The notes under the pieces: model-generated | Databases searched by the model: none | The model's input: the letters and a program-made list of their open reading frames with translations, nothing else | What the model was told of the DNA's origin: nothing | Program-made: the position numbers and the translations under genes | In this document: piece by piece, positions 4,336 through 7,466 of the stretch | How the letters are laid out: each line of letters starts with the position of its first letter | Numbering within the stretch: position 1 is the stretch's first letter | Origin: Oscillospiraceae bacterium | Lineage (GTDB): Bacteria; Bacillota; Clostridia; Oscillospirales; Oscillospiraceae | Length of the DNA stretch: 35,963 nt | Reading direction: 5' to 3' | Assembly (NCBI GenBank): GCA_017458085.1 | Contig: JAFTGE010000118.1 | Span: 1 to 35,963, forward strand

Positions 4336-4365
4336 TTGACTTTAGCCGTTAAAAGTGCTAAAGTC
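4336..4365 (+). promoter_or_regulatory. Promoter with spanning palindromic operator, importer operon
   Basis: The -35 TTGACT (4336-4341) and -10 TAAAGT (4359-4364) are 17 bp apart. A perfect inverted repeat GACTTTAGC (4338-4346) and GCTAAAGTC (4357-4365), with 10-bp centre, covers both boxes. A dimeric repressor bound there would block RNA polymerase. Transcription should start near 4371, only about 20 nt before the leader-peptide ATG. Confidence 0.7.
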
Positions 4366-4391
4366 ATGCCATCACCTAAGGAGACAACGAC

Positions 4392-4496
4392 ATGACCAAC
4401 TTCCGTTTTGCAGGTGCATACCGTTATTACTTTTACTTTTATGGAAGTAAGAGCGGTTTGTGCTGCAAGGAAAGCTTCGGTCAGGATTTGAGATAA
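4392..4496 (+). CDS. Phe/Tyr-rich attenuator leader peptide
   Basis: A 34-codon frame with a strong ribosome site (AAGGAG at 4378-4383, 8 nt before ATG) and TAA at 4494-4496. Nine of residues 4-17 are aromatic: Phe4, Phe6, Tyr10, Tyr12, Tyr13, Phe14, Tyr15, Phe16 and Tyr17, including the run YRYYFYFY. There is no tryptophan. The frame lies between a good promoter and a strong intrinsic terminator, before the ABC importer genes. This is the arrangement of a classical amino-acid leader peptide, where ribosome stalling at the repeated codons senses shortage of charged tRNA. It is inferred to sense Tyr and/or Phe. The peptide itself probably has no other job. Confidence 0.8.
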   Translation: MTNFRFAGAYRYYFYFYGSKSGLCCKESFGQDLR

Positions 4497-4554
4497 AGGT
4501 TCATCCCAATTCCGCCAAGCGCCGCACAGACTGCCAGTCTGTGCGGCGCTTTTT
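4413..4554 (+). promoter_or_regulatory. Trp-type transcription attenuator (predicted Tyr/Phe)
   Basis: Four segments can form mutually exclusive stems. Segment 1 (4413-4423, overlapping the first Tyr codon) can pair with segment 2 (4454-4464) with one mismatch and three G-U pairs. Segment 2 (4453-4463) can pair over 11 consecutive positions, two of them G-U, with segment 3 (4524-4534). Segment 3 is the left arm of the terminator with segment 4 (4536-4551). A ribosome stalled on the Tyr/Phe codons 4419-4442 would cover segment 1, let 2:3 form and prevent termination. All pairings were worked out by eye, without energy calculation. Confidence 0.7.
4517..4554 (+). terminator. Attenuator terminator
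   Basis: A perfect 16-bp GC-rich stem (4517-4532 with 4536-4551, loop GCC) ends in a run of T residues (4550-4554). It lies 20 nt after the leader-peptide stop and about 110 bp before the first importer gene, which marks it as a regulated terminator within the operon leader. The remaining 4555-4650 shows no further feature. Confidence 0.9.
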
Positions 4555-4666
4555 ATTGGGGTGCTGCTGAAAGCCGCTTGCTAGCCGCGGTTTCCCGCAG
4601 GCCCCTGTCTCCCGGGAGGATATTCCCAAAGAAAAACGCAAACAATCAGCAAAGGAGAAAATGAAA

Positions 4667-5683
4667 ATGAAAAAGGTACTTGCTCTCATCTGTGTTCTGG
4701 CCATGGTCTTCTGTCTGGCCGCCTGCGGCAGCAGCTCGTCCTCCACCGCCGCACCTGCCACCGCCGCGCCCGCGGCCGCAGCCCCCGCCGAACCCGCCGC
4801 CGCGGACGACAGCATCGTCATCGGCATCTGCCAGCTGGTCCAGCACCCGGCCCTTGACGCCGCCACGGAAGGCTTCAAGGACGCCGTCACCGCCGCCCTC
4901 GGCGACAAGGTCACCTTCCTGGAGCAGAACGGTTCCGGCGACTCCGCCGCCTGCGCCACCATCTGCAACCAGTTCGTAAGCGAAGAGGTCGACCTCATCA
5001 TGGCCAACGCTACCCCCGCCCTGCAGGCCGCCGCTTCCGCCACCAACTCCATCCCCATCCTGGGCACCTCCGTCACCGACTACGGCTCCGCCCTGGGCAT
5101 TGACAACTGGACCGGCGTCACCGGCACCAACATCTCCGGCACCTCGGACCTTGCCCCCCTGGACGGCCAGGCCCAGATCATTCAGGAGCTCTTCCCCGAC
5201 GCCAAGACCGTGGGTCTGGTCTACTGCTCCGGCGAGGCCAACTCCCTCTTCCAGATCGACAGCATCGAGCCCATGATCCAGGCCCTCGGCTTCGAGACCG
5301 TGCGCTTCAGCTTCGCTGACTCCAACGACGTGTCCGCCGTCATCACCAACGCCTGCGGCGAATGCGACGTGCTCTACATCCCCACCGACAACACCGCCGC
5401 CTCCTGCACCGAGGCCATCAACAACGTGGCCCTGAACGCCGGCACCCCCATCGTCTGCGGTGAGGAGGGCATCTGCGCCGGCTGCGGCGTGGCCACCCTG
5501 TCCATCGACTACTACGATCTCGGCACCGCCACCGGCGAGATGGCCGTTGACATTCTGACCGGCGGCGCCGACGTCTCCGCCATGGAGGTCCGCTTCGCGC
5601 CCCAGTTCACCAAGGAATTCAACGCCGATCTCTGCACCGCCCTCGGCATCAACGTTCCCGACGACTACGTCGCCATCGGATAA
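4667..5683 (+). CDS. ABC transporter substrate-binding lipoprotein, TrpX-like family
   Basis: A lipoprotein of about 338 residues: signal sequence MKKVLALICVLAMVFC, lipobox LAAC with Cys20 as the predicted lipidated residue, an Ala/Ser/Pro-rich linker, then a two-lobed periplasmic-binding-protein type I fold starting SIVIGICQLVQHPALDAATEGF. This matches the ABC_sub_bind family (PF04392), whose best-known operons, trpXYZ, import tryptophan or tyrosine. AGGAG at 4653-4657 is 9 nt from ATG 4667 but only 3 nt from ATG 4661, so 4667 is preferred. It is the first gene of a three-gene importer behind a Phe/Tyr leader peptide, suggesting an aromatic amino-acid ligand, probably tyrosine or phenylalanine. 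Ligand identity is inferred from regulation only. Confidence 0.9.
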   Translation: MKKVLALICVLAMVFCLAACGSSSSSTAAPATAAPAAAAPAEPAAADDSIVIGICQLVQHPALDAATEGFKDAVTAALGDKVTFLEQNGSGDSAACATICNQFVSEEVDLIMANATPALQAAASATNSIPILGTSVTDYGSALGIDNWTGVTGTNISGTSDLAPLDGQAQIIQELFPDAKTVGLVYCSGEANSLFQIDSIEPMIQALGFETVRFSFADSNDVSAVITNACGECDVLYIPTDNTAASCTEAINNVALNAGTPIVCGEEGICAGCGVATLSIDYYDLGTATGEMAVDILTGGADVSAMEVRFAPQFTKEFNADLCTALGINVPDDYVAIG

Positions 5684-5719: not shown

Positions 5720-6676
5720 ATGTCTGTGTCTGCCTATTTCGCATCGCTGAGCCTGCTGAAGCTGGCCAAGGCTGTTCCCGGGGGCATTGCCCAGGGACTG
5801 ATATGGGGTCTGATGGCCCTGGGAGTCTTTATTACCTTCCGGCTGCTGGACGCGGCCGACCTGACGGTGGACGGCTCCTTTACCCTTGGCGGCGCGGTCA
5901 CGGTGATGCTGATCATAGGCGGATGCCCCGCGTGGCTGGCCGTGCTGTGCGCGGTCGGCGCGGGGATCCTGGCGGGACTGGTCACGGGTCTGCTGCATGT
6001 CAAGCTCGGCATTCCCGTGATCCTCGCCGGTATTCTGACGCAGTTTTCCCTGTACTCCATTAACCTGCACGTGATGGGCATGGCCGCCAACAAGGCGCTG
6101 AGCGTGGATAAGTACAATCTGCTGCTCTCCTCCCGCGCCATTCCCTCCGCCATTGTGACGTCCCTGATCATCGCGGTGGCCCTGGTCTCGATCTTCTACT
6201 GGTACTTTGGCACCGAGCAGGGCAGCGCCATCCGCTGCACCGGCGCCAATCCCGCCATGGCCAGCGCCCTCGGCATCAACATCGGCGTGATGAAGATCAT
6301 CGCCCTGTCCCTCTCCAACGGCATTGTCGCCCTGTCCGGCGCACTCATGAGCCAGTACCAGGGCTTCGCGGATATCAACATGGGCCGCGGCGCCATCGTG
6401 ATCGGTCTGGCCGCTGTGATCATCGGCGAGGCGCTTGGCCACGCGCTGCTGGGCAAGCGGCTCAACTTCTGGGGCACGATGGCCTTCACGGTCATCGGCG
6501 GCGTGGTGTACTATCTGGTGGTGGTCATCGTGCTGTGGCTGCGCCTCAACTCCAACGATCTCAAGCTGATCACCGCGATCATCGTGGCGCTGTTTTTGGC
6601 GCTGCCATATCTGAGGGAGCAGAAACGCAGCTCCTTCCAGAAACTGAGAGCGAAGGAGGGCCAGCCCCATGCTTAA
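5720..6676 (+). CDS. ABC transporter permease, TrpY-like
   Basis: A 318-residue integral membrane protein with about eight or nine hydrophobic helices, of the permease family that pairs with ABC_sub_bind proteins and resembles branched-chain amino-acid permeases. Recognisable parts are the early IAQGLIWGLMALGVFITFRLL segment, LTVDGSFTLGGAV near residue 50, and a cytoplasmic coupling region TGANPAMASALGINIGVMKI near 170. It forms the membrane channel, probably as a homodimer. ATG follows AGGAG. The gene begins 36 nt after the binding-protein stop and overlaps the ATPase gene by 8 nt, so the three are one operon controlled by the upstream attenuator. Confidence 0.92.
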   Translation: MSVSAYFASLSLLKLAKAVPGGIAQGLIWGLMALGVFITFRLLDAADLTVDGSFTLGGAVTVMLIIGGCPAWLAVLCAVGAGILAGLVTGLLHVKLGIPVILAGILTQFSLYSINLHVMGMAANKALSVDKYNLLLSSRAIPSAIVTSLIIAVALVSIFYWYFGTEQGSAIRCTGANPAMASALGINIGVMKIIALSLSNGIVALSGALMSQYQGFADINMGRGAIVIGLAAVIIGEALGHALLGKRLNFWGTMAFTVIGGVVYYLVVVIVLWLRLNSNDLKLITAIIVALFLALPYLREQKRSSFQKLRAKEGQPHA

Positions 6677-7466
6677 ACTTGAAAACATCTCCAAAACCTT
6701 TAACCAGGGCACTGTCAACGAAAAGAAAGCCCTGCGCGGCGTTTCGCTGCACCTGGCCCCCGGCGACTATGTGACCGTCATCGGCTCCAATGGCGCCGGA
6801 AAATCCACCATGCTCAACGCCGTGGCCGGCGTCTGGCCCGTGGATGAGGGCCGCATTATCCTCGACGGCGAGGATGTCACCGCCAAGCCCGAACACAAGC
6901 GCGCTACAAACATCGGGCGCGTGTTCCAGGACCCCATGATGGGCACCGCCGCCAATATGTGGGTGGAGGAAAACCTGGATCTGGCAATGCTGCGCGGCGA
7001 AAGACGCGGTCTGCGCTGGGCCGTGACCAAGCAGGACCGGGAGTTCTTCCGCGAACAGCTCAAGACGCTTGGACTGGGACTGGAGGACCGTATGACCACG
7101 AAGGTGGGCATGCTCTCCGGCGGTCAGCGCCAGGCGCTGACCCTGCTGATGGCCTCGATGAAGAAGCCAAAGCTCCTGCTGCTGGACGAGCACACCGCCG
7201 CCCTGGATCCGGCCACCGCAGCCAAGGTACTGGAAATCACCGACCGCATCGTTGACGAGCACAAGCTCACCACCCTGATGATCACGCACAACATGAAGGA
7301 CGCCATCCGTCACGGCAACCGCCTGATCATGATGAACCAGGGCCAGATCATCCTGGACATCAGCGGCGAGGAAAAAAAGAGCCTGACCAAGCAGGATCTG
7401 ATGGACATGTTCGCCAAGACCGCCGGCACCACCCTCGATTCCGACGAGGCGCTGCTGACAAAATAA
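6669..7466 (+). CDS. ABC transporter ATPase, TrpZ-like
   Basis: A 265-residue nucleotide-binding protein energising the importer on the cytoplasmic face. Visible motifs are Walker A GSNGAGKST (39-47), Q-loop in GRVFQDPMMGT (about 84-93), signature LSGGQ (149-153), Walker B LLLLDEH (169-175) and the switch histidine in MITHNMKDA (about residue 207). The residue after the catalytic glutamate is His-Thr-Ala-Ala instead of the usual Pro-Thr, which is normal for the ATPases that accompany PF04392 binding proteins. It overlaps the permease gene by 8 nt with AAGGAGGG inside the permease end. A strong terminator follows directly. Confidence 0.95.
   Translation: MLKLENISKTFNQGTVNEKKALRGVSLHLAPGDYVTVIGSNGAGKSTMLNAVAGVWPVDEGRIILDGEDVTAKPEHKRATNIGRVFQDPMMGTAANMWVEENLDLAMLRGERRGLRWAVTKQDREFFREQLKTLGLGLEDRMTTKVGMLSGGQRQALTLLMASMKKPKLLLLDEHTAALDPATAAKVLEITDRIVDEHKLTTLMITHNMKDAIRHGNRLIMMNQGQIILDISGEEKKSLTKQDLMDMFAKTAGTTLDSDEALLTK

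Follow-up and report, generated by a model that had tools for sequence, protein, structure and literature searches.

The window analysed here is a stretch of 35,963 nucleotides from an Oscillospiraceae genome (contig C54 of an assembly that is 93.5% complete), and it raises the question of how its ABC importer is regulated and what the importer carries. The importer is encoded on the + strand by genes for a substrate-binding lipoprotein (4661..5683, PF04392), a permease (5720..6676, PF02653) and an ABC ATPase (6669..7466, PF00005). In Firmicutes, amino acid genes are expected to be controlled by T-boxes. In our study, the DNA in front of the importer very probably encodes a trp-type ribosome-mediated transcription attenuator, which would sense charged tRNA-Tyr (and tRNA-Phe) before an importer of aromatic amino acids, most likely of tyrosine.

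The leader ORF and its alternative pairings

The promoter (4336..4364, +) contained a -35 element TTGACT at 4336, a 17-nt spacer and an extended -10 element TAAAGT ending at 4364, a layout common to the importer upstreams of many relatives. It was followed by a Shine-Dalgarno sequence AAGGAG (4378..4383, +; read by eye) and by a leader peptide ORF (4392..4496, +) of 34 codons, MTNFRFAGAYRYYFYFYGSKSGLCCKESFGQDLR. The peptide contained nine Tyr/Phe residues at the positions 4, 6, 10 and 12-17. Among the ATG ORFs of 12-60 codons on both strands of the window, it was the only one with at least 8 aromatic residues in 14; none of 60 simulated windows (first-order Markov, same length) contained so aromatic an ORF, and the best reached 7 in 14. 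The intrinsic terminator, the pairing 3:4, was found as a hairpin at 4517-4551 with 16 pairs (4517..4557 with its T-rich tail, +; -30.7 kcal/mol, z -7.35). The promoter, the 34-codon ORF with nine aromatic residues among positions 4-17 and the terminator 5' of the importer had all been pointed out in the preliminary description, and each was confirmed in the sequence.

Folding placed segment 1, which overlaps the Tyr/Phe codons, at 4406..4435 (+) as the 5' arm of the 1:2 hairpin, whose 3' arm (4442..4470, +) contains segment 2 (-27.5 kcal/mol, z -4.77). Segment 2 (4453..4466, +) is the 5' strand of the 2:3 antiterminator, and segment 3 (4521..4534, +) is its 3' strand and at the same time a part of the 5' arm and loop of the terminator; both were delimited by covariation and folding. 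The 2:3 helix of 4453-4463 with 4524-4534 was paired at 11/11 positions and extended to 4465-4466 with 4521-4522, giving a duplex of -19.6 kcal/mol. The 2:3 and 3:4 pairings proposed earlier thus hold, and the 1:2 helix proposed at 4413-4423 with 4454-4464 (10/11 positions paired, by eye) is mostly the inner part of the hairpin at 4406-4435/4442-4470.

When segment 4 was absent, the fold of 4446-4536, in which the RNA up to 4445 is masked, contained the full 2:3 helix, and the fold of 4392-4536, in which the leader is free, contained 1:2. The fold of 4446-4556, or of the whole leader, was the terminator at equilibrium, which beat 2:3 even with segment 1 masked. Since the equilibrium fold of the complete RNA is the terminator, the switch must be kinetic, as in the known attenuators.

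Leaders of the importer in related genomes

The closest relatives of the window genome are Ruminococcaceae/Oscillospiraceae MAGs, some of them from goat reticulum or roe deer rumen. A search of the 102 genomes of the genus gave 76 places with the importer binding protein, in 75 genomes. The upstream DNA was compared for 73 places and for the window (74 in total), leaving out two places at contig edges. A leader was called when an ORF had an ATG, a Shine-Dalgarno-like motif and at least 4 aromatic residues. By this rule 63/74 upstreams contained an aromatic leader, and two more were recognised by eye. Among the 11 rule-negative upstreams, G060 has its leader farther upstream, G093 has a truncated leader and G028 is cut by a contig end; in the other eight (G035, G039, G024, G000b, G087, G059, G020 and G056) no leader was seen by eye. 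The aromatic codon run, conservation of which had been named as a check on the attenuator, is therefore kept in most relatives, with eight readable upstreams that are devoid of the leader. The window's own genome has, in G000b (G000:C107:3360-4247), another copy of the binding-protein gene, which lacks a leader.

The typical importer leader peptide was MRFVRFAFAYRYYRYFDRK; four leaders (G014, G018, G067 and G071) were Phe-rich instead of Tyr-rich. A divergent subtype without the GTGCTGC core was found in G052, G079 and G001 (importer upstreams L167, L184 and L182, respectively), where the Tyr run is kept and segment 2 and the terminator are different; these leaders likely follow the same logic in another sequence. 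Six of 36 named importer loci contained an ORF with at least 6 aromatic residues in 12, in a screen that had little upstream DNA at some loci and missed L031 because its ORF is too long. A hairpin terminator was called in 165 of the 166 leaders of the importer and aroF sets, by automatic calling that misplaced a few hairpins (G014, G064). Of 56 registered importer leaders, 43 have their stop codon ahead of the segment 2 core and 13 behind it, including the window leader, whose stop codon ends 37 nt beyond the start of the core.

In alignment A1 (57 rows), the 2:3 helix was paired in 98.2% of the cells lettered on both sides, as against 25-51% when one strand was slid; 59 gapped cells, all in the three outermost pairs, were set aside. 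Six of the 13 pairs were changed on both sides, in 42 cells compared with 11.9 in shuffles (0/500), and the covariation score was 0.231 compared with 0.150 (0/500). Because the relatives are not independent of each other, these figures are not probabilities. One position contained A-U, C-G, U-A and G-U, which implies repeated change, and GAAG/CTTC, GTCG/TGAC and GCGG/CTGC were found as covarying examples. A second set was anchored on motifs, which dropped the rows without a segment 2 core or a segment 3 motif and kept 58 rows (59 after one was restored); 96.1% of its 2:3 cells pair (737/767 in 59 rows). Breaks in one or more of the 11 contiguous pairs were seen in 16 of 58 anchored rows, and G090 and G033 lose three outer pairs. 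In the variable block, with 31 distinct variants, segments paired with their own partner at 3.61 of 5 positions versus 2.83 (sd 0.13) with swapped partners (0/20000). Covariation of the three stems had been suggested as a check, and for 2:3 it was largely passed; across the genus this covariation shows a putative switch under selection.

The energies of the 2:3 duplex agreed in three sets of leaders. The native duplex was at -21.4 kcal/mol versus -18.2 with swapped partners in the importer leaders (n=60), at -20.8 versus -17.9 in the aroF leaders of the genus (n=51) and at -18.3 versus -13.4 in other aroF leaders (n=47), with 0/5000 swaps in each case. The native codons also gave a stabler 1:2 hairpin than the mean synonymous recoding in 55/61 importer leaders, in 43/47 aroF leaders of other genera and in 49/54 of the genus (the last as a count only). 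For the window leader itself this margin was small (-35.6 versus -31.9, sd 4.4; 0.8 sd). Rows with a terminator energy above -9 were excluded from the swap and recoding comparisons.

The importer and the genes behind related leaders

The TrpX equivalog (NF041285) was rejected as a name for the window binding protein, which scored 216.8 bits, far below the cut-off of 390. The best-scoring solved structure was 6HNI, which is CD0873 of C. difficile. CD0873 is reported to bind tyrosine specifically, with Glu-263 in contact with the hydroxyl of Tyr and Tyr-279 keeping Trp out; at the same two sites the Phe binder VC_1101 contains Ala and Tyr, and the Trp binder SP1069 contains Ala and Gln (PMC6816091). 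E268 and Y284 of the window protein align with E263 and Y279 of CD0873, so that the two proteins have the selectivity residues in common. The Tyr-type Glu and Tyr were found in 62/62 rows compared; two of these rows represent a single protein present in two collections, and three belong to Ruminococcus records that lack the leader. Leaderless relatives share these residues, and they therefore mark the type of importer and not the leader. A correlation of Phe-rich leaders with a Phe-type pocket was also rejected, as G014, G018, G067 and G071 all keep the Tyr-type Glu. Leader and pocket thus agree imperfectly, and the specificity may be for Tyr or for Phe; by its residues, tyrosine is the likeliest substrate.

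Related leaders were searched for with two covariance models, R1 built from importer leaders and R2 built from 55 aroF leaders. R1 matched in 73/102 genomes of the genus. Beyond the importer leaders, it matched at 56 further places, not counting two weak antisense matches over importer leaders; aroF (DAHP synthase) follows at 55 of these, and at the last one the contig ends before a gene could be assigned. The aroF leader of G060 was probably picked wrongly. In the order, R1 matched 52/394 genomes and 34/169 genera, the window's own included, and 48 of the 52 places besides the window's precede aroF. In L221, from another genus, the leader precedes a TrpX-like binding protein gene. In L217 a leader-like element (274-374) with a short Tyr-containing ORF is followed by a small ORF and tyrS (818-2059), and this is a second place in its genome, G259. 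The remaining places, L232 (a partial match) and L239, lie outside the aroF, importer and tyrS assignments.

In the class, R2 matched 52/391 genomes and 32/223 sampled genera, again with the window's own included. We read 29 of the 59 places besides the window's: aroF follows the leader at 27 of them, tyrA at one and a gene for chorismate mutase-prephenate dehydratase at another. One more of the 59 (G132) was read in the phylum scan, and the other 29 stand outside the counts. In L335, L348 and L356, where the ORF screen gave no leader, and in L340 and L343, where it was doubtful, an aromatic leader was found by eye in all five. In the phylum, at a stricter E<=1e-4, R2 matched 8/398 genomes; besides the window's there were seven loci, and six of them precede aroF (five outside the class, and G132 in the window's order), the exception being L370. 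The aroF genes were called by tblastn with one reference, which the profiles NF006421 and PF00793 identify as a DAHP synthase. Phe and Tyr made up 36-39% of the residues in three leader sets, and Trp was found in 5/165 leaders; as aromatic or Phe/Tyr content had served to select these leaders, the percentage is partly built in.

Among 12 named genomes, R2 matched four. Full-length elements were found only in the uncultured RUG12358 and RGIG3212, and the partial matches in Ruminococcus bromii ATCC 27255 and in a Pseudobutyrivibrio MAG resemble plain terminators. The other eight, including two Anaerotruncus colihominis, Blautia hansenii, a Butyrivibrio, R. bromii 5AMG and Ruminococcus sp. FMBCY1, gave no match, and none of the cultured species among the 12 contained a full-length element. 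As the matches across these ranks indicate, the window leader is not a one-off before one importer; it is one member of a class-wide family.

Other regulatory RNAs were seen near some of these leaders. On the strand opposite the aroF leader, L196 contained FMN and SAM riboswitches (1773-1908 and 2652-2751, +) and L211 a glmS ribozyme (1805-1959, +). The window itself contained a glycine riboswitch (RF00504, 2703-2795, -, 66.1 bits) before a gene of the sodium:alanine symporter family (1255-2658, -).

In many relatives aroF and chorismate synthase are separated by a few kilobases. A search of the window's own assembly (93.5% complete) found neither DAHP synthase (aroF, TIGR01361) nor chorismate synthase (PF01264). 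The aro operon may have been lost, which would make this genome depend on the importer for Tyr/Phe, or the assembly may lack one stretch. The absence of the two genes is compatible with an aromatic auxotrophy of this genome.

Proposed mechanism, alternatives and known systems

The comparison brought out conserved aromatic codons, a covarying 2:3 helix, a terminator, codons that favour 1:2 and leaders before Tyr/Phe genes, from which we infer ribosome stalling, a response to Tyr/Phe and the transported substrate. When charged tRNA-Tyr/Phe is low, the ribosome would stall on the codon run and cover segment 1; segment 2 would then pair with segment 3, the terminator would be blocked and the importer transcribed. 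With ample Tyr/Phe, the ribosome would move on and either occupy segment 2 or allow 1:2 to form again behind it, so that segment 3 could pair with segment 4 and transcription would end near 4555. With a stop codon ahead of the segment 2 core, segment 2 would be covered by a ribosome that has reached the stop; in the window leader, whose stop codon ends 37 nt past the core start, segment 2 would be uncovered at that point, and termination would need 1:2 to re-form. Early-stop and read-through leaders would both yield termination when Tyr/Phe are plentiful.

The features of an attenuator were found together here, namely a run of amino acid codons, a covarying 2:3 helix exclusive with 1:2 and 3:4, and a terminator before the regulated gene. 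Genes that match the amino acids of the leader were found in aroF, tyrA and prephenate dehydratase, whereas the importer matches only via its binding-site residues. Sensing of Tyr/Phe gains support because related leaders precede these three genes and because the binding protein of the importer keeps the Tyr-selecting residues of CD0873. Together with the conserved codons and the 2:3 covariation, this speaks for the ribosome-stalling attenuator for Tyr/Phe that the preliminary description had put forward.

The leader could also be read in other ways. The short ORF might encode a functional microprotein, such as a transporter-linked peptide, beside an incidental terminator; it has a Shine-Dalgarno sequence, and some members share start (RFAxAY) and end (GLCCK) motifs. 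However, the peptides differ from one another in sequence, length and place of the stop, Tyr can stand for Phe and vice versa, the covariation is at the RNA level, and the RNA of the GTTTGTGCTGC stretch is conserved both where it is translated and where it is not (stop beyond the core in 13 of 56 leaders and ahead of it in 43), and we regard a microprotein as very improbable. Just as improbable is that tyrosine, tRNA (in a T-box-like manner) or a protein is sensed directly by the leader RNA, with the ORF as a bystander. T-boxes are present in the window's own genome (seven matches, two above the Rfam cut-off), which means that T-boxes and the leader switch coexist there. At the window leader, however, no Rfam 15 family was found at gathering score, T-box (RF00230) included, and the leaders of 15 related loci gave no T-box, riboswitch or other Rfam match (E<=0.5) except a sub-threshold Thr_leader in L149 (27.7 bits, cut-off 55); the sole T-box match among these loci (L205, 1091-1304) lies away from the leader. 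Alignments A1 and A2 keep the codon run and the switch helices, and no aptamer-like core was seen in them.

The promoter overlaps an inverted repeat, ACTTTAGC-N10-GCTAAAGT (4339..4364, +), which was located by exact pattern match on both strands. A similar repeat was found in 53/71 importer upstreams of the genus (those of at least 500 nt). These included five leaderless importer upstreams from five genomes, where the repeat sits ahead of a different promoter (by eye). The leader might hold a plain terminator, with a repressor acting at the repeat and the attenuator as a relic, and the persistence of the repeat without a leader agrees with this. We consider a relic hardly more probable than the two preceding readings: the genus-wide 2:3 covariation points to selection on the switch, and the aroF leaders have the switch but seldom the repeat (2/55 upstreams in the genus). 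A scan of the own genome with up to 2 mismatches gave 30 matches versus 49 in the control, that is, no enrichment of the repeat. Its exact pattern was found at two places, in the window and at G000:C77:14406-14431, directly 5' of a DctA/GltP symporter-like gene (its scores fall short of the model cut-offs). The palindrome may be a candidate operator of a regulator that adds a second layer of control, and the attenuator and control at the promoter may coexist as layers.

In the enterobacterial trp and phe attenuators, a short ORF that contains codons for the regulated amino acid is followed by three mutually exclusive helices and an intrinsic terminator. The family of the window has the same short ORF, exclusive helices and terminator as this generally described anatomy (Trp_leader, Phe_leader). 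Unlike those attenuators, it is clostridial, has no Rfam match, governs an importer plus synthesis genes, and in 13/56 leaders is translated through segment 2 before the stop. The preliminary description regarded ribosome-mediated attenuation as best known from Proteobacteria, which needs qualification, as His leader attenuators (PMC2965389, PMC9413887) and a Leu-rich ilv-leu leader attenuator of S. aureus (PMC5794164) have been published for Firmicutes; they are likewise proposed to be ribosome-mediated and concern other amino acids and other genes. The uORFC-13-1 motif 5' of aroF in Acholeplasma, with a uORF containing Phe codon(s) and a terminator, was also proposed to act by attenuation; it differs in resting on 24 sequences, which come from one genus and environmental DNA, in containing Phe only, and in its exclusive position before aroF (PMC8632094). 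The trpX importer of Streptococcus suis is of the same type and has an amino-acid-responsive leader, but it is reported to take up tryptophan and to sense tRNA by a T-box and not by leader translation (PMC9382623). In the open-access literature, outside which many relevant papers lie, we found no description of a leader attenuator for Tyr/Phe ahead of clostridial aroF or importer genes. The mechanism is classical and known; the putative Tyr/Phe attenuator family of clostridia appears to be new.

Tentatively, and with slightly less than even confidence, we propose that this is one homologous Tyr/Phe attenuator, old in Clostridia, whose regulon takes in tyrosine import along with aroF, tyrA, prephenate dehydratase and possibly tyrS, in genomes that also have T-boxes. 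A copy of it would have passed from the aro operon to the importer in the window's genus, and where the aro operon was lost, perhaps here, only the importer copy would be left.

With R2 matches in 32/223 sampled genera of the class, Firmicutes may possess a second sensor of aromatic amino acids that works by translation and has been overlooked. For an importer that comes closest to TrpX among named models, the leader suggests a substrate, and it predicts when such bacteria would take up tyrosine. It also yields a usable covariance model and a case in which one type of attenuator would be common to genes of synthesis and of uptake.
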